A stretch of DNA of 60,949 nucleotides, taken from positions 1 to 60,949 of the forward strand of contig WBUR01000026.1 of assembly GCA_008933615.1 (NCBI GenBank), given 5' to 3'. Within the stretch, counting starts at the first letter, position 1. Every line of letters starts with the position of its first letter. The notes beneath the pieces were generated by a model. The model saw only the letters and a list, made by a program, of their open reading frames with translations. It made no database searches and was not told the DNA's origin. Both the position numbers and the translations under genes were made by a program. This document shows, piece after piece, positions 4,519 to 28,581 of this stretch. This stretch comes from a bacterium. Its GTDB lineage: Bacteria; CLD3; SB21.

Positions 4519-5259
4519 TTAAAATGAAAAATCAAGATTAACGTGTTCTCCGCTCCCAACTGTTATTTTTTGAATTTTGTTTCCGCCGTTTTCCTGCCAC
4601 GCCGCAACTTCATAATTGCCCGGAGGAACGCCGCTGATAGTATAACTGCCGTCAATACCGACGGCGGTAAAATACGGATTTTGCAGTACCAGAATAACTC
4701 CGCCCATCTGGGAATGAATGTCGCAGAAAACCTTGACAGTACCTAATGTGTTAAATGTCACCGATTTAGATTTTCCTTTGGAATACCGGCCAAGATCAAA
4801 AGTTTTAGTTTCAGAAAGCGAAAAGATGTTGTGATAAATTTCATCTTCGTTTGGAAAATCAACGGTCGTACCAAGTAAAACAGGTAAGACATGCGGCACA
4901 ATGGCTATGTTTTTCTGGCGCATCACCGGCCTGCTTTGCGGTAGAGGATATTTGCCGGGCGCTTTCACGATAAAGACAATGGCTTTCTTATCAACACTGC
5001 CGCTCTTACTCAGCCGCGATGTACTTTTTCCGTATAATCCCTTGGTTGACCTGGCTGCAGTTCCTCCGGATTTGCTCACAAACACTTTCCCGGTGATTTT
5101 CCCTTCCGCCGGTAAAGCCGGCAGGTTTTCAATTGATTCCGATTCAGCGTATTTAATCAATCCTGAATCCGACATCTTTTGGAAGAACTTGACATCCTCG
5201 CCCAAAAGCGTAAATATAAGCGCCGTTGCAAAACTAACTAACATAATTACAATTTTCAT
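4519..5259 (-). CDS. Periplasmic cupredoxin with carboxypeptidase-regulatory-like domain
   Basis: The 246-residue protein has an N-terminal signal/anchor segment (MKIVIMLVSFATALIFTLL). Residues ~120-190 form a plastocyanin-like domain with a complete type 1 copper set: His143 (YHNIF), Cys179, His182 and Met185 in the C-x-x-H-x-x-M loop. The C-terminal ~45 residues (GSYTISGVPPGNYEVAAW) are a carboxypeptidase regulatory-like beta fold. This arrangement matches cupredoxins annotated as methylamine-utilisation-like proteins. The role is probably a mobile electron carrier for the cytochromes of the same operon. I chose the second ATG at 5259 because GGAGG lies 9 bases upstream; the longer frame from 5283 would put charged residues before the signal. 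The terminator at 4461-4490 follows. Confidence 0.82.
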   Translation of the reverse strand: MKIVIMLVSFATALIFTLLGEDVKFFQKMSDSGLIKYAESESIENLPALPAEGKITGKVFVSKSGGTAARSTKGLYGKSTSRLSKSGSVDKKAIVFIVKAPGKYPLPQSRPVMRQKNIAIVPHVLPVLLGTTVDFPNEDEIYHNIFSLSETKTFDLGRYSKGKSKSVTFNTLGTVKVFCDIHSQMGGVILVLQNPYFTAVGIDGSYTISGVPPGNYEVAAWQENGGNKIQKITVGSGEHVNLDFSF

Positions 5260-5287
5260 GATTTTATTCCTCCGAAATCTCAATCAG

Positions 5288-6511
5288 TTAAAATGGAACA
5301 GACAATTGTGCCGCTGTGAACCGGATGCTCTTAATAGTCGACTTTTTATCAAAAACAGTCCATTGCTCGACCAACTTAAGCGTTGCGTCAGCAGTAATTC
5401 TAAATCCCAACCCGGCTTCATATCGTTTCACGTCATAATCCCAACTTTCATTGGCGGCCGTCGCAGGATTTTTGATCTTGCTGAAATTCATCATGTCATA
5501 CCGCGCTGCGACGTAGAGCTTGGGATGCAGCTTATATTTGGCATCTACATACCAACTCCAATTAGATAATTCTCCTTCATCCACCGACGCGTCCCAGGTG
5601 CTTTTAACAAATTCACTGAAAACGATCAGGTATCTGTAGCTTGCCTCTAAGTCCACCCCATAAGCCCTTTGCCGATATTCTCCCTTTCCTTTCCCCTCTT
5701 CCAGCAGCCTTTGAGGATCGGCACTTGACAAATAAGGATTGCTTGCGCCTGAAAAACCAAATTTTAATCCCGCAGCAGGTGCAAAACCTAAACGACCTAA
5801 AAATTGCTTTCCTTTGTTTTGATTCGCATCAGGATTTGAAATGGACCCTTCAGTAACGGCTATTTGGTACTCCACAAAGGAAATATTTCCAAATAACTCT
5901 ACTCCAAAATCCCAACGTGCGTCGTAAACAGTTGGCGTTGCCCCGGCTAATACATTAACGGGTAGGTTCCCTTTATGAGCTTTTCTTCTGTTCTTTAAAA
6001 TAAGTTGTTCCTGATTATTCCACAGATTATTCCAATCCAGGCTGGTTCGATATTGCCGCATGAGCGGTTGACCTATCAGAGGGTTGACATCTGAAAATTC
6101 ACGTTTACCAAAATTTCCGAAAAGATTGGGAATTTTCCCAATCATAAAATTGATTTTTTCGTTGGGAACATCGAAGATGGTAATAAAGGCGCCCTGAAGC
6201 CGGACTTTTTCTGCCGAAGCATCATCAAATAGAACTTCTACATCCGCCCGTAATTTTTCTTTATGCTGAAAGCGGAAATTTAAGAGTGCGCGGATATTAT
6301 TAAAATTATTATCATTCAGCGTATTGGCGTTGAGATGTGGTTTATTCCCGAAAGTAGTAACGGCATCGACAATACCGCCAATGCCGGTAGTGTTTTCCGA
6401 AGTCTCCGTCATTTCGCCAAACTCATCCGGCAGAGACTCATCCTGAGCCCACACACTTTCGCATGCGGCTAAAGCTAAGATCAGAAGAAGGGTTGTCAAT
6501 GTCTTTTTCAT
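5288..6511 (-). CDS. Outer-membrane beta-barrel porin-like protein
   Basis: The ~407-residue protein has a Sec signal peptide (MKKTLTTLLLILALAACESVWA, cleaved before Q). The mature part alternates hydrophobic and polar residues in many short strands, with aromatic girdles (YEAGLGFRITADATLKLVEQW). It ends in Phe (QLSVPF), the usual beta-barrel assembly signal. A central stretch (KIPNLFGNFGKREF, then RQYRTSLDWNNLWN) recalls phosphate-selective or DcaP-type porins, but I cannot assign a substrate. It sits between the diheme cytochromes and the cupredoxin in a tight minus-strand operon, so it probably brings in the substrate or ion for that redox module. The start at 6511 is preferred over 6535 because the signal peptide begins there. 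Confidence 0.75.
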   Translation of the reverse strand: MKKTLTTLLLILALAACESVWAQDESLPDEFGEMTETSENTTGIGGIVDAVTTFGNKPHLNANTLNDNNFNNIRALLNFRFQHKEKLRADVEVLFDDASAEKVRLQGAFITIFDVPNEKINFMIGKIPNLFGNFGKREFSDVNPLIGQPLMRQYRTSLDWNNLWNNQEQLILKNRRKAHKGNLPVNVLAGATPTVYDARWDFGVELFGNISFVEYQIAVTEGSISNPDANQNKGKQFLGRLGFAPAAGLKFGFSGASNPYLSSADPQRLLEEGKGKGEYRQRAYGVDLEASYRYLIVFSEFVKSTWDASVDEGELSNWSWYVDAKYKLHPKLYVAARYDMMNFSKIKNPATAANESWDYDVKRYEAGLGFRITADATLKLVEQWTVFDKKSTIKSIRFTAAQLSVPF

Positions 6512-6542
6512 AGTACAAATCCTGATGTATGGCACGTTAATA

Positions 6543-7322
6543 CTATAACGTTTTTAAATATTCGATTAAATCGGTTTTTTCCTGTTCAGTTAAACTAATA
6601 TCGTAAATGCCCAATGTATTCCATCCCCATGTTGTCATTTGTACCGTCTGAACCGAATCTGCGTAATGATTAACTACATTCCACAAAGTGGCCGCAGAAT
6701 GGTCTCTGAAATACGGCGCCGTAGCAAATACCCAGCGAAGTGATGGCACGTCAACTTGCGGATTTAATTTTTTTATTTGAATTTTAAACTTTCCTGTAAG
6801 CGCTTCCCCTGAATGGCACACGTTGCATTTTCCCTGCCCTTCAAAAACCGTCTTTCCTTTTTGTTGTTGTGTTGTCAGCGAGCCGTCGGAATTTCTCCAT
6901 GGATTCGCCGGAACCGCCAGCGATAATTGATAGGCGGTTAGGGCGTCCAGTTCTTCCTCTGTCGCCGATCCGTGCAGAACGCTGTCTATGACCACGCGTG
7001 TAACTGTTTTAATTTCACTCCCACCCTCACCGAACCACAAATACGGGGGCGTATCAACAACTCCAAACAACGTCGGTGTTGCAATGGAGTCTGTAGAAAT
7101 TGGCGGTAATAACCACTTCTTGTGGTCCATGTCGCCGCTAGGATGGCACGTTGCACAGCTATACGTTTGACCGGCAATATTGTCAAATTTAGTATCATTG
7201 AAAAGTTGCCGGCCTAATGTAATCTGAGGATCTTCACTTATTTTTTCTTTGTCACATGCCATTAGACTTAATAAAGCGACGAAAACGCATCCATTCAAAA
7301 AACTGTAGAAAATCTGTTTCAT
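6543..7322 (-). CDS. Diheme cytochrome c lipoprotein of the CCP/MauG family (copy 1)
   Basis: The 259-residue protein has a lipobox (LLSLMAC, acylated Cys23) and two haem-c sites, CATCH (56-60) and CNVCH (166-170). The overall pattern (ITLGRQLFNDTKFD, then HP and W after haem 1, TPSL/VPSLRWVFATAPYFRDHSAATLWNVVNHY after haem 2) is that of the bacterial cytochrome c peroxidase/MauG family. At ~237 mature residues it is clearly shorter than the ~300-330 usual for these enzymes. It may reduce peroxide or catalyse oxidative chemistry with the cupredoxin as partner; the substrate is unknown. It is a tandem paralogue of the next gene upstream, 13 bases away, and the DKEKISED stretch after the lipobox is identical in both. 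Confidence 0.85.
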   Translation of the reverse strand: MKQIFYSFLNGCVFVALLSLMACDKEKISEDPQITLGRQLFNDTKFDNIAGQTYSCATCHPSGDMDHKKWLLPPISTDSIATPTLFGVVDTPPYLWFGEGGSEIKTVTRVVIDSVLHGSATEEELDALTAYQLSLAVPANPWRNSDGSLTTQQQKGKTVFEGQGKCNVCHSGEALTGKFKIQIKKLNPQVDVPSLRWVFATAPYFRDHSAATLWNVVNHYADSVQTVQMTTWGWNTLGIYDISLTEQEKTDLIEYLKTL

Positions 7323-7335
7323 AATATTATTAGAA

Positions 7336-8094
7336 TTAAAAGGTTTTCAAATATTCGATCAGATCGTCAATTTCTTGATCAGTTAAATTAATTATAAAAT
7401 CATGATCCTGTAACTTATGTTCCGGATCTGCAATGTAAAAATCAATCACGTCGCGAAGCGTTTTAGCTCGGCCATCATGAAAAAAATCCGATTTCGAATA
7501 CATAGCGATCAGACTTGGTGTTTTGAAAAAACCGCCGGTACCGATATCTTTAACAAAACCGTTAGTACCGGTTGGAGCGGGATGGCACGGAGAACAGAAG
7601 CCCTTTGTTTCATAAATTTTTTTTCCTCTTTTTTGTTCCATGGTCAGATCGCCGTCGCTCTGAATCCATGGATTTGATGGAGCAATTAAAGATTTCTGAT
7701 ATGCCACCAAAGCTTCGAGTTCCTCATGGGTCGCCAGACCGCCCATGATCGTATCTGTGTAAAGTTTGGTAATTTCGTAAAGGCCTGTAGTTCTTCCCGA
7801 CCATAAATAGGGCGGGCCGGTTTGTGCAACGCCCCATAACGTCAGGGTTTTTAACGAATCGGGTTTGCCGTTGGATGAGTCGTGAATTGAAGGGAAATGC
7901 CATTTTCGATTATCTGTATGGCCGTCAGGATGGCAAGTTGCGCAACTCTGCTCACCAGAAGAGGAGAACCGCTTATCATGAAATAATTCTCGACCGAGTG
8001 CGATCTGGGCGTCTTCGCTGATCTTCTCCTTATCACACGCGGAAAAAATTGCGGAAATTAAAAACAAGGATACGCAAAATACTATTTTTTGCAT
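7336..8094 (-). CDS. Diheme cytochrome c lipoprotein of the CCP/MauG family (copy 2)
   Basis: This 252-residue protein is the first gene of the redox operon. Its lipobox is FSAC (Cys20). The haem-c motifs are CATCH (51-55) and CSPCH (167-171). Downstream TPSLIAMYSKSDFFHDGRAKTLRDVIDFY matches the CCP/MauG motif in which the distal-side residues of the peroxidatic haem lie. It shares long stretches with copy 1 (LGRELFHDKRF, EELEALVAYQKSL, LTDQEIDDLIEYLKTF at the end), so the pair arose by duplication. The two may be divergent subunits or isozymes. Transcription probably starts in the 247-bp divergent region shared with the rhodanese gene. Confidence 0.85.
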   Translation of the reverse strand: MQKIVFCVSLFLISAIFSACDKEKISEDAQIALGRELFHDKRFSSSGEQSCATCHPDGHTDNRKWHFPSIHDSSNGKPDSLKTLTLWGVAQTGPPYLWSGRTTGLYEITKLYTDTIMGGLATHEELEALVAYQKSLIAPSNPWIQSDGDLTMEQKRGKKIYETKGFCSPCHPAPTGTNGFVKDIGTGGFFKTPSLIAMYSKSDFFHDGRAKTLRDVIDFYIADPEHKLQDHDFIINLTDQEIDDLIEYLKTF

Positions 8095-8341: not shown

Positions 8342-8854
8342 ATGAAATCCTTACTCAAATCATTGATCATTGCATTTTTCCTCAGCGTCACGCTTCATGC
8401 CCAAGATACCGGATATCATGTTTTCCTTAAAGCGTTGTATGAAAAATTCAATGTCGATCATATTTCAGCTGATTCGCTATCCAAGCTACTGACATTCGAT
8501 TCCGTCGTTGTTCTTGACACACGCTCAGAGAACGAATATTTGGTTAGTCACATTCATAACGCCCGTTGGATAGATTTTGACACGTTTGATTTCGCCAAGA
8601 TGCATGATATTTCCAAGTCATCTCGTATAATTACGTATTGCTCGGTCGGCTATCGAAGTTCCGTCATTGCAGAACGACTAACATCGTTGGGATACCTAAA
8701 CGTGCAAAACCTTTTTGGCGGAATATTTGAATGGGTTAATCAGGAATACCCGGTCTTTCGTGAAGGAACTGAAACGACAGATATCCATCCGTATAACAAC
8801 TTCTGGGGAAAATGGCTACGGCACGGAAATAAAGTTTCCAAACCACGGAAATAA
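8342..8854 (+). CDS. Periplasmic rhodanese-like sulfurtransferase
   Basis: The 170-residue protein has a Sec signal peptide (cleavage after LHA, residue 20) and one rhodanese domain from ~38 to ~150. The domain shows VVVLDTRSENEYLVSHIHNARWID, then the active-site loop YCSVGYRSS with the persulfide-forming Cys100, and a final GGIFEWVNQEYPV. It may move sulfane sulfur or cyanide-reactive sulfur in the periplasm. It is transcribed away from the cytochrome operon from a shared intergenic region. A terminator follows directly. Confidence 0.85.
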   Translation: MKSLLKSLIIAFFLSVTLHAQDTGYHVFLKALYEKFNVDHISADSLSKLLTFDSVVVLDTRSENEYLVSHIHNARWIDFDTFDFAKMHDISKSSRIITYCSVGYRSSVIAERLTSLGYLNVQNLFGGIFEWVNQEYPVFREGTETTDIHPYNNFWGKWLRHGNKVSKPRK

Positions 8855-14485: not shown

Positions 14486-17400
14486 CTATCCGATTACACG
14501 CTTTATTTCGTACAAAAGATCGTCGGTACTGTATGATGCTTTCTGCATGAGGCAGCGAACTTGTCCGCTGAGAATATCTTTTTCTTTTCTCGTTAGTTCT
14601 TTAGCGGTGAGTATGATGATCGGAATTTCCTTCAGATTAGGATCCTGCCGCATCACGTCCACCACTTCGAAGCCGCTCATCTGAGGCATCATCAGATCCA
14701 AAATCAACAGATCGGGCTTGCTGTTAGTAATTTTCCGCAGTGCTTCTACGCCATTTTTAGCGCGATCAACGTCAAATCCCTCTTTCTCAAGAAATGTTCC
14801 TGTCAAAATTAACGCCTTCTCATCGTCATCTACGACTAATATTTGAGATACATTTTTCTTACGCTTTTTCGACTTTTTTAGCTTGTTAATTTTCTCGATC
14901 AGCAAGTCGCGATCAAGCGGCTTAATAAAATAATCATCCGCATGCAGGCTGTATGCCAAGTCTTTATTGTCAGTTACGGAAACGATAAATACTGGAATTC
15001 CCCGCGTCACAGGATCGGATTTTAATTCCTGCAATACTTCCCACCCGTCCTTACCCGGCAGCATGATATCCAGCGTAATCGCCAAGGGCCGTACTTTTCT
15101 GGTCTCGGCGAGCGCGTCAATACCGTTATTTATGTGAATTGTCCTGTATCCTTCCAATTCCAGAAAGCGTTTGATCAGGTTCGCCGACTGCAAGTCATCT
15201 TCGATAATTAATATGATATTACTGTCAAACACATCTCCTTTTTCGATCGTATGTTTAAGAACTGTTTCATCGCCGTTGGGACGTTGTGGAATGATGAAAA
15301 TGAATTTGCTTCCTTTGTTCAATTCACTTTCAACCCATATTTTCCCGCCGTGCATTTCAATCAGTCTGCGGCACAAAGCAAGGCCAAGGCCCGTTCCCTG
15401 ATCTTCCCGTGTACTACTCCCGTCGACCTGGCGAAATTCGTCGAAAATTACATCGTGAAATTCCTTCGGAATACCTCGGCCGTTATCCTTTACAGCTAAT
15501 TGAAAAACCGGTTGCCGGCCGTTATGAAGAATAATGGATTCTATTCCGATCACGGTGCCTGGAGAAGAAAACTTGATCGCGTTACTTAGCAAATTGATAA
15601 TGACTTGTTTAATTTTATTCGGGTCGGCAAAAATTTTCATTTCTCCATCGACCCGTATTTCCAGCGTCTGGCTCTTCTTATCCAATAACGGCGCGACGGT
15701 ACGTTTGATTGTGTCGAGTAACTGCGGTACTTCAAAATACTCCTGATTTAATTCCATTTTGCCCGCCTCGATCTTAGACAGGTCTAGAATATCATTAATC
15801 AGCTGTAAAAGATGTTTACCGCTGTGGTGAATGTCCTGCAAACTTTGCATTTGATCCGGCGTCACGCTTTCTTTCATTTCATCCTGAAGCAATTCAGAAA
15901 AACCGATGATCGCATTCAGCGGTGTGCGAAGTTCGTGACTCATATTGGCGAGAAATTCTGACTTTAGCCTGTCCGTTTCTATGATTTTAGAGTTCATTTC
16001 GCGAAGCGATTTCGTGCGTTCCTCCACTTTTATTTCGAGAATTTCATTTTGCTTCTGAACCGCAGTTACCCTGGAGCGGTAATACCCTACGACCGCCCAA
16101 CCGATCAACAATACAACCGATACCCTGAACCACCAGGTATTCCAAAAAGCAGGAGTGATCACGATCGTAACGGCAGCGCCGGTTTCATTCCATAACCCGT
16201 CGTTATTCGTGCCTTTGAATCTAAACGTGTACGTCCCGCCGTCCAGATTGGTATAGTTCGCATAACGGCGTGAACCGGAGTATATCCAGTCATTGTCGAA
16301 GCCCTCCATTTTATAAGCGTATTGATTTTTCTCCGGCCTAGTAAAATCAAGAGCGGCAAATTCAAAAGAAAAAACATTTTCCTTATAAGACAATTTAATT
16401 TCTTTGATTTCAGAAACGGAGGTCTCCAGTTTTTGAATTCGGTCAAATTTCTTAAATGCAGTCAGAACCATGGGCGGTATATGCGAGTTGTCTTTCACCT
16501 CTTCCGGAAGAAATACATTAAAACCATTCACTCCGCCGAAAAACAGTTCACCTTTGCGGTCTTTATAATAAGCGCCGCCGTTAAATTCGTCGCTTTGCAA
16601 ACCGTCATGCAGATCGTAGTTGCGTATTTCCAGATTGTCTGAAGCAAGGTCGTACCGAATACGGGATAACCCCTTATTAGTGCTGATCCACAGGAAACCC
16701 TGATTATCTTCAAGTACAGCATACACGACCTCGTTAGGTAATCCTGCTTCCCGTGAATAATGTGCGAAAGTACCTTTCTCCCGGTCTAATTTATTTAACC
16801 CGCCGTTCTGAGTTCCAATCCAAAAATTTCCGCTTTTGTCTTCGCACATACTGAGGATGCCGTTGGAACTGATCGAGTTCGGATCCTTAGTATCGTTTTT
16901 ATAAACTGTAAATTTCCCTGTTTTACGGTCAAACCTATTAAGACCTCCGCCAAAAGTGCCAACCCATATAATACCGTCGCGATCTTCAAATAATGAATAA
17001 ATATCGTTACTACTGATGCTATTTGGATTCAATGGATCATTCATATAGGATTCAAATGCTTCAGACACCGGATCAAGCTTGTTAAGCCCACCGGCGCGCG
17101 TACCAATCCAAATAATACCGTCCCGACTCTTCAAAAGAACTTTGACGCGGTTATCGCTTAAGCTTTTCTGATTTGCGGGATCCTTGCGGTATCTGGAAAA
17201 GATTCCAGTAGTAAGATTCATCTTATTTAGTCCGCCGCCATTGGTTCCGATCCAAAGCGATCCATTATCGTCCTGCAGAATGGACCAAACGCGGTCTTCG
17301 CTGATGCTCTGGCTATTCCTCGAATCGTTACGGTAAAATGAAAAGGTGTTGTTTTTCCTGTCGAAACGATTCAATCCCCCGCCATTGGTTCCGATCCAAA

Positions 17401-18574
17401 GAATGCCGTCATGATCTTCAAAAAAACACCATACTTCGCTCACGTTAAGACTGTTGGGGTTGTATGGCTCCGTTTTAAAATGTCCAAATTTTTTCGGCTT
17501 TCGGTCAAACTTACTTAATCCTCCGCCTGTCCCGATCCACAATGTTCCGGATTTGTCTTCGAGGAGACTGTAGACGCGGTTTTCACTAAGACTATTTAGG
17601 TTAATCGGATCTTGATGATAACTAACGAACTTATTTCGCGATGGATCACGCGGGTCAAAACAATTAAGCCCTCCGCCGTCCGTGCCTATCCAGAGTATGC
17701 CAAGTCGATCTTCAAAGATCGTCTGAACGCGATCAAACGACAAGCTTGCAGGGTTTTTATCGTCATTCTTAAATGAAATAAAACTGCCGGTCTCTTCAGA
17801 AAGCAATTTATTAAGCCCGCCCGCTGTACCGACCCAAATGGTCTTATTTTTGTCCTGATATATTGCGTTTACAAAATCATTACTTAAACTATTTGCAAAA
17901 TTTGCTTGATGTGTATAATGCAGAATAGTTCTGCGATTCCGTTGGTTTGTAAGTTTATACAACCCGGATCCCTGCGTACCAAACCAGATTTGTCCGATCC
18001 GGTCCTCAAAGATCGTGGAAACGTAGGCCTGTTCGATGCCGTTCTCCCCTGCCAAACGTTGAAATTTACCCGTTCGGCGGTCAAAAGTACAAGCGCCCAT
18101 CCCGGTGCCGATCCAAAAAGTTCCGCCCTTATCTTCGTACACCGACCGCACGTCATTACTTATTAGACTGGCCGGGTCGTTTTCATCGTGCATATATGAA
18201 ACAAATTTTTCTGTAAACCGGTCAAATCTATTTAAACCGCCGCCTTGGGTGCCTATCCATATCGTACCGGACACATCTTCAAATAAGGAAGTAATCCAGT
18301 TGCTTGATATCGTGAAAGTGTCCAGAGAACTGCGTTTATACACGATAAAATTATATCCGTCATACCGATTCAATCCGTCTTGTGTGCCAAACCACATGAA
18401 TCCGCGGCTGTCCTGAATGATGCAATTGATACTACTTTGTGAAAGTCCCTGTTCAATCGTTATTCTTTCAAAGTCGATTTCAAGTTCTTGCGCCGGGCAT
18501 ACCGACCCGAAGCCAAAGCTCGCAATAACCGGTAAAATGGATCGGAGTAACCGTTTTTGGATGGTCAATTTCAT
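14486..18574 (-). CDS. Hybrid histidine kinase with two-component propeller sensor and two receiver domains
   Basis: This 1362-residue protein begins with a signal sequence (cleaved near PAQ, residue ~28). Thirteen propeller repeats ending in [IL]W[IFV]GT-x-GGLN follow (to ~690), which should fold into two seven-bladed beta-propellers. A Y_Y_Y beta-sandwich (ending ~800) and one membrane helix (~815-835) come next. The cytoplasmic part has HisKA with His880 (NMSHELRTPLNAIIGFSEL), a HATPase with N box (LLSNAIKFSS) and G boxes (DNGRGIP, GTGLGLALC), then two receivers (TLDIMLPGKDG and ILDLMMPQMSG). It resembles the periplasmic glycan-sensing hybrid kinases of Bacteroidota but lacks an AraC output domain. 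It starts one base after the GAF kinase gene ends. Confidence 0.93.
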   Translation of the reverse strand: MKLTIQKRLLRSILPVIASFGFGSVCPAQELEIDFERITIEQGLSQSSINCIIQDSRGFMWFGTQDGLNRYDGYNFIVYKRSSLDTFTISSNWITSLFEDVSGTIWIGTQGGGLNRFDRFTEKFVSYMHDENDPASLISNDVRSVYEDKGGTFWIGTGMGACTFDRRTGKFQRLAGENGIEQAYVSTIFEDRIGQIWFGTQGSGLYKLTNQRNRRTILHYTHQANFANSLSNDFVNAIYQDKNKTIWVGTAGGLNKLLSEETGSFISFKNDDKNPASLSFDRVQTIFEDRLGILWIGTDGGGLNCFDPRDPSRNKFVSYHQDPINLNSLSENRVYSLLEDKSGTLWIGTGGGLSKFDRKPKKFGHFKTEPYNPNSLNVSEVWCFFEDHDGILWIGTNGGGLNRFDRKNNTFSFYRNDSRNSQSISEDRVWSILQDDNGSLWIGTNGGGLNKMNLTTGIFSRYRKDPANQKSLSDNRVKVLLKSRDGIIWIGTRAGGLNKLDPVSEAFESYMNDPLNPNSISSNDIYSLFEDRDGIIWVGTFGGGLNRFDRKTGKFTVYKNDTKDPNSISSNGILSMCEDKSGNFWIGTQNGGLNKLDREKGTFAHYSREAGLPNEVVYAVLEDNQGFLWISTNKGLSRIRYDLASDNLEIRNYDLHDGLQSDEFNGGAYYKDRKGELFFGGVNGFNVFLPEEVKDNSHIPPMVLTAFKKFDRIQKLETSVSEIKEIKLSYKENVFSFEFAALDFTRPEKNQYAYKMEGFDNDWIYSGSRRYANYTNLDGGTYTFRFKGTNNDGLWNETGAAVTIVITPAFWNTWWFRVSVVLLIGWAVVGYYRSRVTAVQKQNEILEIKVEERTKSLREMNSKIIETDRLKSEFLANMSHELRTPLNAIIGFSELLQDEMKESVTPDQMQSLQDIHHSGKHLLQLINDILDLSKIEAGKMELNQEYFEVPQLLDTIKRTVAPLLDKKSQTLEIRVDGEMKIFADPNKIKQVIINLLSNAIKFSSPGTVIGIESIILHNGRQPVFQLAVKDNGRGIPKEFHDVIFDEFRQVDGSSTREDQGTGLGLALCRRLIEMHGGKIWVESELNKGSKFIFIIPQRPNGDETVLKHTIEKGDVFDSNIILIIEDDLQSANLIKRFLELEGYRTIHINNGIDALAETRKVRPLAITLDIMLPGKDGWEVLQELKSDPVTRGIPVFIVSVTDNKDLAYSLHADDYFIKPLDRDLLIEKINKLKKSKKRKKNVSQILVVDDDEKALILTGTFLEKEGFDVDRAKNGVEALRKITNSKPDLLILDLMMPQMSGFEVVDVMRQDPNLKEIPIIILTAKELTRKEKDILSGQVRCLMQKASYSTDDLLYEIKRVIG

Positions 18575-21689: not shown

Positions 21690-23420
21690 ATGACCCTCAA
21701 ATTCAGAGACAAGCTCATACTACTTGTTCTGGTTATATTGATCATAGCCGGAACATCTTATTTCTTCGTATCCGTGCAGTTGGCTAAGCGCATTGAAAGC
21801 GACATTGTCGACCGGCTTTCCCGCAGCAATGTTACCTACGAAGAATTTAACAACAGCTATTTCAATCAGCTTATTCTGCAATCCCGCAGCGTGTCCGACA
21901 ACCCGAAATTCGCCGCTCAGCTCAGCACCGGCGATAAAGCCACGGTACAACAGGGTCTTGATGAAACCAACAGGATTAATGGTTTTAATTCGGATATCTT
22001 TGTTGCGCTAAGTCCCTCCGGAGAGGTGTTGGCGTACGTAGGAACTGAGATGAAGTCGAATATAAATCTGTCACAGCGACCTGAAATCAGCGGCGCCCTC
22101 AGCGGAATTGACAACGGCGGTTTTTGGGAGGAAAACGGAAAATTGATTCGCGTGGCCGCATCGCCGACCATAGCCAACGATCAGGTTCTTGGCGCTATCG
22201 CATTGGGCTATGAGGTCTCCGATACGGTAGCTGCTGTCATTTCAAAAGTAACAACCAGCCATATCGCATTCCTTGTCAGCAACAAAATTGTTGCAACCAA
22301 TATGTATGATAAACGACAAGAATTATTTGACCAATTCCAGCAGCATAAATCCGAACTGGATCACGCGATGATCAAAAAAACATCCAGTTCTGCATTTAAA
22401 TTTATGGTCGGCGAAGAAAAATATTTGGGGGTAGCTTCCCCGGTATTTGCATCGCCGGGTACCGAAGGCGAAGATAAGAAAGTTATCGCAACTTACGTGT
22501 TCTTTAATTCTCTCGACAAAGCGCTCGAACCGCTGGTTGATTCGCGGAAACTGATGCTCATAATCGGATTGGGCGTTGCTGCTATTGCATTATTTATCGG
22601 CATCGTTATTTCACATGGCGTAGCGCGCCCCGTGGCCTTACTTGCGAATGCGACCCGGGAAATTGCAGCCGGGAACTTAGATTTCGAAGTAAAAGTAAAA
22701 AGCAAGGATGAGATCGGGCTTCTGGCTTCGTCATTTAATGAAATGACCAAAGGACTGAAACAAAAGAAACGCGTCGAAGGACTCTTCGGGAAATATTTAT
22801 CGCCTGACGTGGCAAAAAAAGTATTGGCGGAACAATCCATCGACGGCATTTTGAAGGGCGAAAAAGCCATGCTGAGCGTTTTGTTTACAGATATTCGCGG
22901 TTTCACGCCAATGTCGCGCGGCATGGACCCTCAGGCGCTGATCAATTTACTCAATTCCCATTTCGACGAAAGCATCGATATTATCGATCGTTACGGAGGC
23001 ACGTTAGACAAATTCATCGGCGATGCGATCCTGGCTTTTTTTGGCGCGCCGGTTCACTATGACGATTTTTTTATGCGTGCAATTAATGCCGCCGTGCAAA
23101 TGCAACGCGCAGTCGAAAAATTTAATTTCCAGCGTAAAATCGAAGGAAAAGATCCCATTCATATCGGTATCGGCATTAATTCCGGCGATGTCATTGTCGG
23201 AAATATCGGTTCAAATAAGCGGCTGGAATATACGGTCATTGGCGAAACGGTGAATATTGCCAATCGTCTTTGCAGTGTTGCAAAGAAGGGACAAATCATC
23301 ATCAGCCAGTCGACGTATGATCTTCTGCCGAACAAAGAAATCGCTTCCGCCATTGAACAGGTCGTTTTGAAGGGCGTAACGGAACCGGTCACGGTGTATG
23401 AGATCTTATGGAAAGGTTGA
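21690..23420 (+). CDS. Membrane-bound class III adenylate/guanylate cyclase with HAMP
   Basis: The 576-residue protein has a first membrane helix at 8-27, a periplasmic sensor of ~260 residues (dCACHE- or CHASE-like), a second helix (~289-311), a HAMP domain (~312-365) and a class III cyclase domain (~395-576). Metal-binding aspartates are Asp401 (LFTDIRGFT) and Asp445 (GDAILAFFG). The transition-state segment VIGETVNIANRL is present, and the substrate-specifying Lys appears as TLDKFIGD. These residues favour ATP over GTP, though I cannot prove it. It should convert an outside signal to cAMP. It is transcribed away from the hybrid kinases and stands alone. Confidence 0.92.
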   Translation: MTLKFRDKLILLVLVILIIAGTSYFFVSVQLAKRIESDIVDRLSRSNVTYEEFNNSYFNQLILQSRSVSDNPKFAAQLSTGDKATVQQGLDETNRINGFNSDIFVALSPSGEVLAYVGTEMKSNINLSQRPEISGALSGIDNGGFWEENGKLIRVAASPTIANDQVLGAIALGYEVSDTVAAVISKVTTSHIAFLVSNKIVATNMYDKRQELFDQFQQHKSELDHAMIKKTSSSAFKFMVGEEKYLGVASPVFASPGTEGEDKKVIATYVFFNSLDKALEPLVDSRKLMLIIGLGVAAIALFIGIVISHGVARPVALLANATREIAAGNLDFEVKVKSKDEIGLLASSFNEMTKGLKQKKRVEGLFGKYLSPDVAKKVLAEQSIDGILKGEKAMLSVLFTDIRGFTPMSRGMDPQALINLLNSHFDESIDIIDRYGGTLDKFIGDAILAFFGAPVHYDDFFMRAINAAVQMQRAVEKFNFQRKIEGKDPIHIGIGINSGDVIVGNIGSNKRLEYTVIGETVNIANRLCSVAKKGQIIISQSTYDLLPNKEIASAIEQVVLKGVTEPVTVYEILWKG

Positions 23421-23534: not shown

Positions 23535-25571
23535 ATGGAATTTATAGATAAATATGCCGGACCTATCGGTAATTTCGCCCTTATTTTGGCTATCGTAATG
23601 GCCGGATTTGCGGTGATTACCTCGATCTGGGGCATAAAACAAAAACGAGGCGATCTGATACGCGTCGCTCAACGCTCTGTTTATATGGTATTCGGAAGCG
23701 TGGTGTTTGCATCACTCTGCCTTATCTATTTACTCGTAACGAGCAATATGAATATCGAATACGTTGCCTCGTACACCAACCATGATCTGCCATACTTTTT
23801 TAAATTTACATTCTGGGCAGGACAGGCAGGCTCATTACTTTTGTGGTCTCTGCTGCTTGCCGGTTACAGTTTTGCCGTTACGTATAGGTACCGTAACACC
23901 CATGGGGAATTGATTCCTTATGTTATCATGACCACGATGGCCACTCAAATATTTTTTCTGTCCCTTAATTTGTGGTCTGCAAATCCGTTCAGCGAATTGG
24001 TAACCGTTCATGCGGACGGTTCGACAACTCCATTTTTTCCCGTTGACGGACGCGGACTAAATCCGCTGCTTCAGCATCCTGCGATGATCATTCACCCGCC
24101 TACTCTGTTTTTTGGTTATGTCGGCTTTGTCATTCCGTTTGCATTTGCTATTGCCGCCCTATTGAGCGGACAATTAGACGACCAATGGATTAAGTTATCA
24201 AGACGTTGGACTCTTTTCGCATGGCTATTCCAAAGCGCCGGCATTATGATGGGCGGCTGGTGGGCTTATGAAGAACTCGGTTGGGGCGGTTATTGGGCTT
24301 GGGATCCAGTTGAAAACGCATCTCTGATGCCGTGGCTGACCGGAACGGCATTTCTTCATTCCGTGATGATCCAGGAAAAGAAAAATATGTTCAAAGTTTG
24401 GAATGTAACGCTTATCATCGCGACCTATCTGCTATGCCTTTTCGGAACTTTCCTAACCCGCTCCGGCGTGGTTTCATCCGTCCACGCTTTCGCTGAGGGA
24501 TCCATCGGCATATTCTTCATGACGTTCATTATCATTGTCCTGGCATTCTCGGTTGCCTTAGTCATATACAGACTCCCCCAGTTGAAGAGCGAAGGCAAAC
24601 TCGATTCCGCATTGTCACGCGAAAGCAGTTTCTTATTCAACAATCTTGTACTATTAATTTCCTGTTTTGCCGTTCTATGGGGAACCATATTTCCTGTGAT
24701 TTCGGAAGCAGTTACCGGAGAAAAGATTGTTGTTGGAGCTCCTTTTTTCAATAAGGTAAATGTTCCGATTGCATTATTCTTACTTTTTCTTACCGGCGCC
24801 GGTCCTCTTTTTGCATGGCGAAAAACTTCGCTCGCAAGTTTGAAAAAAGCATTTCTCTATCCGGGTCTCATCGCGTTAGCCGGCGGTATTGCAGTCTTTA
24901 TCTTTCTCACCCAGCATCTTTACGGACTCATTTCATTTACGTTGTCCATTTTTGTTACGGCCGTCATTGTAATTGAATTCATGAAAGGTACGGCAGCGCG
25001 AATGCATTCAACCAAAGAAAATTTTCTCGTCGCGCTTAAAAATTTGACCTGGAAAAATAAACCCCGTTACGGAGGCTATATTGTTCACTTCGCCATGGTG
25101 ATCATTTTCGTCGGTATTACCGGGGTTATTTTCAACTTCGAAACCAAAACGGAATTGGGCGAAGGGCAATCCTTTCAGGTAAAAGACTATACCTTGAAAT
25201 GTGACAAAATCGGTTTTGAATCCAACGCTAACTATGAATCTTCTTTCAGTGTTCTCGGCGTTTACAGAGACGGACGCAAAGTTCATGAGTTAAAACCGGA
25301 ATACCGAATGTATAAAGCCAGCCAACAGCCCACTACCGAAGTGGCTTTGTATAAAACGATTCAGGAAGATCTGTATGTGGTATTTACCGGGCTGGATAAG
25401 ACGGAAAAAAAAGCCGTGTTGCAGATATACGTGAACCCTCTGGTCTCATGGATCTGGTTTGGAACGGAAATATTGGTATTCGGAACGATCATTTGTTTAT
25501 TGCCCGCCTATACTGAAGACCGCAAGGAAGTCAAAGTTCGCAGAAAGGAAAATATCGGTGAAAAAATATAG
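23535..25571 (+). CDS. ccmF: Cytochrome c haem lyase subunit CcmF
   Basis: The 678-residue polytopic protein has about 14-15 membrane helices and the tryptophan-rich haem-handling signature WGGYWAWDPVENASLMPWL (250-268). Conserved LLQHPAMIIHPPTLFFGYVGF and FGTFLTRSGVVSSVHAF blocks are also present. CcmF ligates haem to apocytochromes c in System I maturation, together with CcmH. The C-terminal periplasmic domain (~540-640, YTLKCDKIGFE onward) is the beta-rich part common to CcmF. AAAGGA lies seven bases upstream of the ATG. Its end overlaps the ccmH start by 14 bases. It would serve the diheme cytochromes at 6.5-8.1 kb among others. Confidence 0.95.
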   Translation: MEFIDKYAGPIGNFALILAIVMAGFAVITSIWGIKQKRGDLIRVAQRSVYMVFGSVVFASLCLIYLLVTSNMNIEYVASYTNHDLPYFFKFTFWAGQAGSLLLWSLLLAGYSFAVTYRYRNTHGELIPYVIMTTMATQIFFLSLNLWSANPFSELVTVHADGSTTPFFPVDGRGLNPLLQHPAMIIHPPTLFFGYVGFVIPFAFAIAALLSGQLDDQWIKLSRRWTLFAWLFQSAGIMMGGWWAYEELGWGGYWAWDPVENASLMPWLTGTAFLHSVMIQEKKNMFKVWNVTLIIATYLLCLFGTFLTRSGVVSSVHAFAEGSIGIFFMTFIIIVLAFSVALVIYRLPQLKSEGKLDSALSRESSFLFNNLVLLISCFAVLWGTIFPVISEAVTGEKIVVGAPFFNKVNVPIALFLLFLTGAGPLFAWRKTSLASLKKAFLYPGLIALAGGIAVFIFLTQHLYGLISFTLSIFVTAVIVIEFMKGTAARMHSTKENFLVALKNLTWKNKPRYGGYIVHFAMVIIFVGITGVIFNFETKTELGEGQSFQVKDYTLKCDKIGFESNANYESSFSVLGVYRDGRKVHELKPEYRMYKASQQPTTEVALYKTIQEDLYVVFTGLDKTEKKAVLQIYVNPLVSWIWFGTEILVFGTIICLLPAYTEDRKEVKVRRKENIGEKI

Positions 25572-26094
25572 TCGGACAAGGTTTTTTATCTTAGTTGGAT
25601 TTGCTTTTATAGGCTCTGTGGGATTCGCATATGCCCAAGGATCGGCGCATTCATCCAAACTTAGCGGCGAACAGGCGGTTTTATTTTCCGAGATTTCCGA
25701 AGAACTGATGTGTCAGTGCGGTTGCAATCTTGTTCTGGGACAATGCGGACATGTCAATTGCCCGTCAGCTGTTCCCATGCGCGAGAAGATCGAGGAGATG
25801 ATTCTCGCTCAAAAAACCAGAACTGAAATAATGGGTTATTTCCTGAATGAATATACTTTTCGCGGGAAAGGGCCATTTGGCAAGGTGATTTTGTCACAAC
25901 CAGGAACCAAAGGATTTGACCTCATGGCGTGGGTCTTACCTTTCATCCTATTTGCAGTATTCTCGGTGGTTCTGTTCGTTGTAGTTAAGCACGCAACACG
26001 CGCCAGCAAGGCTTTGGAACATGATGCCCCGGCGCCGACGCCCTCGTCGGATGTTGACCGGCGCATCGAAGAAGATTTAAAAAAATTGGAATAA
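25558..26094 (+). CDS. ccmH: CcmH-type cytochrome c biogenesis protein
   Basis: The 178-residue protein has a signal peptide (cleavage after AYA, residue ~26) and a CcmH domain with a cysteine-rich active loop: LMCQCGCNLVLGQCGHVNC, cysteines 52, 54, 56, 63 and 68. The classical motif is LRCxxCQNQ; this CxCxC variant occurs in other CcmH-like proteins. A membrane helix (~130-152) and a cytoplasmic tail follow. CcmH keeps the apocytochrome CXXCH reduced and hands it to CcmF. The start is GTG at 25558, with AGGAAA upstream; earlier in-frame codons run far into ccmF and lack a signal. Confidence 0.88.
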   Translation: MKKYSRTRFFILVGFAFIGSVGFAYAQGSAHSSKLSGEQAVLFSEISEELMCQCGCNLVLGQCGHVNCPSAVPMREKIEEMILAQKTRTEIMGYFLNEYTFRGKGPFGKVILSQPGTKGFDLMAWVLPFILFAVFSVVLFVVVKHATRASKALEHDAPAPTPSSDVDRRIEEDLKKLE

Positions 26095-27885: not shown

Positions 27886-28581
27886 ATGATCGATATCGTT
27901 AATATCACTAAACTCTACGGACGATTCCGCGCCCTCGATAACCTCGATCTGAAGATAAGCGCAAACGATTTCGTTGCTATTCTCGGTCGGAACGGAGCCG
28001 GAAAAACGACTTTGCTGAAAATTATCGCTACTCTTCTGAAGCCCACCGGCGGTGAAGTACACATCAACGGACATAATATCCGCAAAGATTCCTTTGTGAT
28101 CTTACAGCAGATGGGCATGGTTTCTCATCAAACATACATATACAGCGATCTGACCGCCAAAGAAAATCTATCATTTTATGCTAAATTCTATGATGTAGAA
28201 AACCCTGCCGCGCGCATACAAAACCTGTTAGAAAAAGTAGGACTTGCTCATAGATCCGATGAATCGGTTCGCCGTTTTTCACGCGGCATGCAACAAAGAT
28301 TGTCGATCGCCCGAGCGCTCCTTCATAATCCGAAGATATTATTGCTCGATGAACCCTACACCGGTCTCGATCAAAAAGCCTGTGAGTTTCTCGATACAAT
28401 TCTGCTCGACTATCATCAAGCCGGCAATTGTATTCTCGTCGTGACCCACGACATAGAACGGATTGCCGGTATTGCCAAACGCGCAGTCGTATTTGACAAA
28501 GGAAAAGTCGCGTGGGATCAAACGATTATTAATTTGGCCCCACAGAATTTTCTGCAACGTGTCAAACCTTTCATGTCCTAA
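27886..28581 (+). CDS. ccmA: ABC transporter ATP-binding protein, probable CcmA
   Basis: The 231-residue ABC ATPase shows Walker A GRNGAGKTT (34-42), the Q loop in LQQMGMVSHQTYIYSDLTAKENLSFYAKFY, signature FSRGMQQRLSIARAL, and Walker B with Asp155 (LLLDEP). Length, the LTAKENL segment and the place after ccmF/ccmH point to CcmA, the motor of the CcmABCD complex that releases holo-CcmE. No ccmB or ccmC follows: the next gene is a sugar isomerase. So either the membrane subunits are elsewhere or this ATPase serves another exporter. There is no clear Shine-Dalgarno sequence before the ATG. Confidence 0.75.
   Translation: MIDIVNITKLYGRFRALDNLDLKISANDFVAILGRNGAGKTTLLKIIATLLKPTGGEVHINGHNIRKDSFVILQQMGMVSHQTYIYSDLTAKENLSFYAKFYDVENPAARIQNLLEKVGLAHRSDESVRRFSRGMQQRLSIARALLHNPKILLLDEPYTGLDQKACEFLDTILLDYHQAGNCILVVTHDIERIAGIAKRAVVFDKGKVAWDQTIINLAPQNFLQRVKPFMS

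Follow-up and report, generated by a model that had tools for sequence, protein, structure and literature searches.

Organization and conservation of the four-gene unit

The stretch of DNA analysed here, hereafter the window, is the 60,949-nucleotide contig WBUR01000026.1 (assembly GCA_008933615.1), one contig of a 3.8 Mb bacterial genome, and the element under study is a unit of four genes on its minus strand, at positions 4519-8094, which in order of transcription encodes two small dihaem cytochromes, a porin and a cupredoxin, with intergenic gaps of 13, 31 and 28 bases. The first gene, cyt1 (7336-8094, 252 amino acids, aa), specifies a compact dihaem c-type predicted lipoprotein of the CCP_MauG superfamily lacking the segment that bears the peroxidatic Glu; the second, cyt2 (6543-7322, 259 aa), specifies another dihaem predicted lipoprotein, paralogous to the first. 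Both were assigned by profile match and alignment. The outer-membrane porin that follows (5288-6511, 407 aa, ATG at 6511) has about 16 strands and a C-terminal Phe, and was assigned from an AlphaFold model, structural matches and relatives found beside cupredoxins elsewhere. The last gene (4519-5259, 246 aa, ATG at 5259) encodes an exported type 1 cupredoxin with a C-terminal carboxypeptidase-regulatory-like domain, as judged by profile scan and ligand alignment. Three prime of it on the same strand, a hairpin scan found a structure resembling an intrinsic terminator, with 11 pairs and a T run (4490-4465), in a region whose four such sites are no excess over the 4.3 found in shuffled sequence. 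The original prediction, made from the sequence of this contig, had described a tight minus-strand unit closed by a terminator, a barrel ending in Phe and a type 1 copper protein with all four ligands, and our analysis bears it out on each of these features; its lipid-anchored, CCP/MauG-like cytochromes hold up in their family matches, haem motifs and lipobox Cys, and the anchoring itself is a prediction.

Our sample of the phylum comprised nine genomes: seven of the window's family (the window's own included), a sister genome (G001) and G002. The order cyt1-cyt2-porin-cupredoxin is intact in 6/6 family genomes in which it could be assessed, namely the window's and five others. In the seventh, G006, which is 85% complete, the contig stops within the porin and the unit could not be assessed; no cytochrome match was present in the rest of that genome. 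Because this order and the close spacing are also seen in other genera of the family, between which the porin and the cupredoxin are 51-70% identical (64-70% and 51-64%, respectively), the layout is more than a product of chance. Co-location within the family is, on its own, weak evidence of joint function, since the flanking housekeeping genes, for a 3-hydroxyacyl-CoA dehydrogenase, pyruvate kinase and Der, are syntenic too in G004 and G005. In G004, additional genes border the unit on either side, and in G003 they adjoin it; none lies inside it. Upstream of the operon in the window lies a divergent rhodanese gene (8342-8854, above the NF045521 cut-off), which among the family loci viewed is syntenic only in the window's genus.

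The dihaem cytochromes

Both cytochromes match CCP_MauG (PF03150) with scores (68.7 and 30.2 bits) that exceed the curated cut-off of 25.6, and carry two CxxCH haem motifs each, and the Cys at the lipobox position, by which they would be anchored to lipid, is invariant in 11 aligned cytochromes of the family. The two halves of each protein resemble copies of one cytochrome domain (hhalign on halves of the family alignment, probability 97.5, E 6e-12), and an insertion in cyt2, QMTTWxWN, is conserved in the cyt2 of five other family genomes. The AlphaFold model of cyt1 was poor (pLDDT 61) and was not used.

With MauG of the Paracoccus denitrificans mau cluster, cyt1 shares the two CxxCH motifs and two further residues: Tyr220, whose position is Tyr in all 11 family cytochromes, aligns with MauG Tyr294, and Trp98 with MauG Trp93. 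With the classical bacterial cytochrome c peroxidases (CCPs), both window proteins share the fold superfamily and the dihaem layout, but the Met of the six-coordinate haem, seen at the Tyr220 position in the CCP 3o5c, is a Tyr in cyt1 and cyt2. According to PMC6405878 and PMC10094543, the ligands of this haem are Met and His in CCPs but Tyr and His in MauG, and an acid-base Glu cleaves the O-O bond. Going by the alignment, cyt1 would have the Tyr-His haem of MauG. The distal-pocket Glu113 of MauG, however, has no counterpart, as the six family proteins aligned all lack the segment bearing it (an alignment to MauG, and only through it to the CCPs). Because this acid-base Glu segment is missing, peroxide chemistry of the CCP/MauG type appears unlikely in both proteins. 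MauG also differs from cyt1, a predicted lipoprotein of 252 aa, in that it is no lipoprotein, in its length (387 aa) and in its surroundings: a scan of nine genes covering the unit and its flanking regions found no methylamine dehydrogenase gene. The mau cluster includes the gene for a cupredoxin, amicyanin, to which the window's cupredoxin has no significant match (E 2.0), and no gene named mauL is present in the Paracoccus cluster.

It is thus very unlikely that the locus encodes an ordinary CCP or MauG-type enzyme with the cupredoxin as its donor and an unrelated porin beside it. The CCP_MauG matches do exceed the cut-off, and the Neisseria peroxidase has a cupredoxin as its donor (PMC10094543), but the Glu segment is absent from 6/6 aligned proteins, Tyr stands in place of the CCP Met, and the score against the MauG equivalog is 64.4 with a cut-off of 443.85. 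A peroxide enzyme was rejected as the principal interpretation on the strength of the missing Glu segment.

The nearest solved relative of the cytochromes is the gamma subunit of hydrazine synthase (5c2v, E 2.5e-26 in a profile comparison), yet the corresponding NCBIfam equivalog is far from reached (69.1 and 59.5 bits, where the cut-off is 625), and neither the alpha nor the beta subunit is encoded in the unit. Hydrazine synthesis was rejected in view of the absent partner subunit. The propeller and multihaem proteins related to hydrazine synthase beta-gamma are, moreover, larger, whereas the window's cytochromes are a free-standing pair of small lipoproteins.

Among the genomes and loci sampled, such a pair was seen only in the window's family. 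Beyond the phylum, the sample derives from a cupredoxin-profile scan, of which we kept the best 80 of 89 loci, from many lineages. The dihaem profile matched six of these 80 loci, three from the window's family and three from Myxococcota, the latter with larger proteins or scattered matches. We also searched 50 of the genomes behind the 80 loci, the sister genome among them, at a threshold of 1e-15; matches were found in 11, and 24 of the 25 fell in frames of at least 606 aa, the other being 335 aa long (G046). At the phylum level, one of 296 genomes had a dihaem match at 1e-20 in the phylum of the Ignavibacteria locus L063 (at most eight candidates scored per genome), and 3/199 at 1e-15 in that of L073 (at most 13 candidates scored). 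The nearest dihaem relatives outside the family are modules of larger proteins (677-968 aa). In L208, L209, L210, L167 and L120, they are C-terminal modules of larger multihaem or propeller proteins, and resemble the hydrazine synthase beta-gamma homologues described in PMC12758564. The matches on Aureibacter plasmids are lone cytochromes, some 570-600 aa long, and neither a cupredoxin nor a porin is annotated nearby. In the sister genome, two MauG-like dihaem genes flank an MbnP gene (L052, 6398-10791), likely a pair of the MbnP/MbnH type.

The porin and the cupredoxin

AlphaFold models the porin with good confidence (pLDDT 86) as a barrel of porin size, made of about 16 long strands. No Pfam porin family scored above its cut-off for this protein. 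Its best structural matches (VIA-align) are OprP and OprO, including 2o4v, with Z of about 27 over some 300 residues, although at 14-16% sequence identity; the next porins reach Z 23-24. A Pfam link that would have placed DUF3034 in the same porin family was looked for and not found, and this candidate relationship was dropped. The barrel also bears on the idea of a porin-cytochrome conduit that would move electrons across the outer membrane to an acceptor outside. One operon does combine a porin and a copper carrier with two haem lipoproteins, but the barrel, with its roughly 16 strands, is that of a solute porin, and the cytochromes have two haem motifs each. Barrels of Mtr-type conduits are larger than that. 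An Mtr-like conduit was rejected for barrel size and for the presence of dihaem proteins only, and a conduit of any kind is the least probable of the explanations we considered.

The cupredoxin has the type 1 ligands His, Cys, His and Met. All four are present in 79/79 loci with all four alignment columns filled, out of the 80, a constancy to be read with the fact that three of the four ligands were part of the scan patterns. Sequence matches to the PDB were weak (best E 0.005). It could be argued that the unit handles copper, with the cupredoxin and haem proteins storing, oxidising or sensing copper supplied via the porin, as the copper protein is the most constant part of these loci and the MbnH-type dihaem enzymes are weak relatives of the cytochromes (TIGR04039, 58.8 and 61.9 bits). 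Those scores are, however, far under the MbnH cut-off of 362.85, neither a copper transporter nor a chaperone is among the genes of the unit, and we consider this explanation improbable. Other cupredoxins of a separate subfamily, going by their sequences, stand beside apparent cytochrome oxidase clusters in G001 (L049, 14170-14976) and G002 (L050, 9042-9836).

Cupredoxin, porin and sensor genes in other lineages

Leaving out four loci of the window's family and one of the sister genome, 75 of the 80 loci remained for comparison. A relative of the porin lies within 2.5 kb of the cupredoxin gene, on the same strand, in 58 of them, and within 300 bases in 50 of these 58; no porin match was found farther than 2.5 kb away in the 75 loci, and the reversed-sequence control gave 0/7921. 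We then asked what the large neighbouring open reading frame (ORF) encodes. Fifteen loci gave none and 60 gave a candidate, of which 59 were scanned, along with the window's sensor described below; the 1403-aa ORF of L127 was left out, and L076, L086 and L088 were represented by a farther ORF of 748-758 aa and not by the nearest. At least 52 of the 59 are sensors, comprising 49 histidine kinases, two cyclases and one HD protein; a HAMP domain is present in 46 and a histidine-kinase ATPase domain in 49. Two of the remaining neighbours are AMP-binding enzymes, the kind of enzyme that adjoins the Myxococcota cupredoxin of L116. The conserved core is therefore the cupredoxin with the porin, and not the set of four genes.

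In Proteobacteria, the cupredoxin, often annotated as a methylamine utilization protein, adjoins an EAL-domain protein, and the one scanned neighbour of this type, from Caballeronia Sq4a, has the architecture dCache_3-HAMP-GGDEF-EAL. Genes for DUF3034 and a truncated haemoglobin adjoin in three of the four EAL-type plasmids examined (two of Caballeronia and one of Novosphingobium), and in the proteobacterial plasmid loci L165, L206 and L207, the DUF3034, truncated haemoglobin, cupredoxin and EAL-domain genes are kept together. These clusters are like the window in the type of the cupredoxin's C-terminal domain and in combining a membrane sensor with a haem protein, but the haem protein is another one, the output is GGDEF/EAL, and DUF3034 has no demonstrated kinship with the porin. 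At a Comamonas locus, an EAL protein follows the cupredoxin and a DUF4394 protein precedes it, with no porin annotated; the surroundings of the Sinorhizobium cupredoxin include oxidase, SCO and sox genes and no annotated porin or sensor. In two Ignavibacteria loci, the gene of a single-haem PSCyt1 lipoprotein precedes the cupredoxin (L063, 7220-7624; L081, 7354-7800). Given the PSCyt1 and truncated haemoglobin neighbours, different kinds of haem protein have joined the cupredoxin in different lineages. In the literature that we searched, from which most subscription journals were missing, we came across no paper describing a cupredoxin-porin-sensor trio.

The sensor gene and the cytochrome c maturation genes

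In the sister genome, the cupredoxin, a HAMP-cyclase and the porin form one operon, in that order. With this cyclase as query, exactly one long homologue was found in each of the seven family genomes; in the window, it is encoded at 21690-23420 on the plus strand (576 aa, a Cache-like sensor, HAMP and adenylate/guanylate cyclase). The reverse search returned the operon cyclase as the only long match in G001, making the two orthologues by reciprocal best match. The sensor parts of the window's protein and of a Marinimicrobia kinase, whose gene is located between a cupredoxin and a porin, are related (E 4e-30), and over its full length the window's protein is 30% identical to a Bacteroidetes cyclase in the same operon position. 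The gene is about 13 kb away from the four-gene unit, and cupredoxin, porin and sensor are all present in the genome without standing together. Across the phylum sample, the porin, a long sensor homologue and a cupredoxin of the operon type occur in 8/9 genomes; G002 has neither porin nor sensor, and its cupredoxins are of another kind.

In 7/7 family genomes, the gene immediately after that of the sensor, in the same orientation, is ccmF; the sensor gene does not occupy this position in G001, and G002 likewise has no sensor gene directly before ccmF. In the window, CcmF, for cytochrome c maturation, is encoded at 23535-25571 (plus strand) and is followed on the same strand by an ORF at 25459-26094, whose start codon is uncertain and whose product, with a CxxC in its translation, we take to be CcmH-like. 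An ABC ATPase farther downstream (27886-28581, plus strand, ABC_tran match) is probably CcmA, given its position. Between the unit and the sensor gene, at 14486-18574, is a hybrid kinase in fusion with a Y_Y_Y domain and regulator-propeller repeats, adjoining a second hybrid kinase with GAF domains.

Discussion

Our results suggest, with a probability that we would put at roughly 0.5, that the operon represents the form taken in this family by a widespread envelope redox-sensing module, with the sensor gene relocated and two dihaem lipoproteins occupying its slot. The combination of genes in the window's family is a new variant, even though its parts and folds are already known. In the simplest history, the common ancestor of the class would have had the three genes as a cupredoxin-sensor-porin operon; the window's family would then have seen the sensor transferred to the operon for cytochrome c maturation and the two dihaem lipoproteins added to the unit, the direction of the move being suggested by the arrangement in other lineages. 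As to function, the module most likely senses a small solute or a redox condition within the envelope, the haem lipoproteins and the cupredoxin forming its redox-active input. The porin would admit a small solute, which the haem lipoproteins may bind, or with which they may exchange electrons at an open haem, and the cupredoxin would carry the electron or the redox state. The Cache sensor could then read the state of the cupredoxin, or the solute itself, and make a cyclic nucleotide that may adjust the supply of c-type cytochromes.

Several points weigh against this interpretation. The electron exchange between cytochromes and cupredoxin is a postulate of the mechanism, and the sensor lies outside the operon, its tie to the four genes resting on ancestry and on a phyletic pattern of nine genomes, one of which is without it. 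The comparison loci were chosen by similarity of the cupredoxin, and 17 of the 75, several from Myxococcota, have no relative of the porin. Nor is the input domain of the sensor uniform, as dCache_3 was called in only 14 of 60 members (the 59 scanned neighbours and the window's sensor), and the neighbouring kinase of Saprospiraceae has TPRs and not Cache (L128; 9/60 members).

The main rival is in essence what the original prediction had proposed, a module for uptake and redox conversion, in which a specific substrate would enter through the porin and be oxidised or reduced by the haem lipoproteins, with the cupredoxin as electron carrier and signalling no longer involved. We regard it as rather unlikely but as the explanation most deserving of attention after our own. 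The tight four-gene unit contains no sensor, the porin has the fold of a solute porin, and the cytochromes retain the Trp and Tyr of the dihaem layout. Elsewhere, however, the cupredoxin and porin accompany sensors and not enzymes, the catalytic Glu is missing, and the sensor is kept in 7/7 family genomes. The first two of these, the company of a membrane sensor and the improbable peroxide chemistry, speak against uptake and redox conversion as the primary role. The original prediction was right in supposing cytochromes other than standard CCPs, as they have the MauG-type Tyr instead of Met and lack the catalytic Glu segment. Its expectation that the four genes occur together held within the family and failed outside it, where a membrane sensor, and not these cytochromes, goes with the cupredoxin and porin, and the four genes cannot be taken as the basic unit.

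Returning to the sensing module that we favour, a broader and more tentative proposal is that the cupredoxin and porin form the input side of an as yet undescribed, general class of bacterial envelope sensors, in which the pore would feed the copper protein and a membrane receptor with a swappable output (kinase, cyclase, HD or GGDEF/EAL) would read the redox or ligand state of that protein. This family might have rewired the circuit by adding haem lipoproteins to the input and placing cytochrome c maturation under the receptor. In many genomes, the cupredoxin is labelled as a "methylamine utilization protein" or as "carboxypeptidase regulatory-like" and stands beside an outer-membrane barrel and a sensor, a combination for which we found no assigned role. 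Its pairing across lineages with varying outputs would turn three orphan annotations into a single hypothesis, that of a copper-redox or porin-fed sensory input, and the window's family would represent a natural rewiring of it, with the receptor located at the cytochrome c maturation genes.

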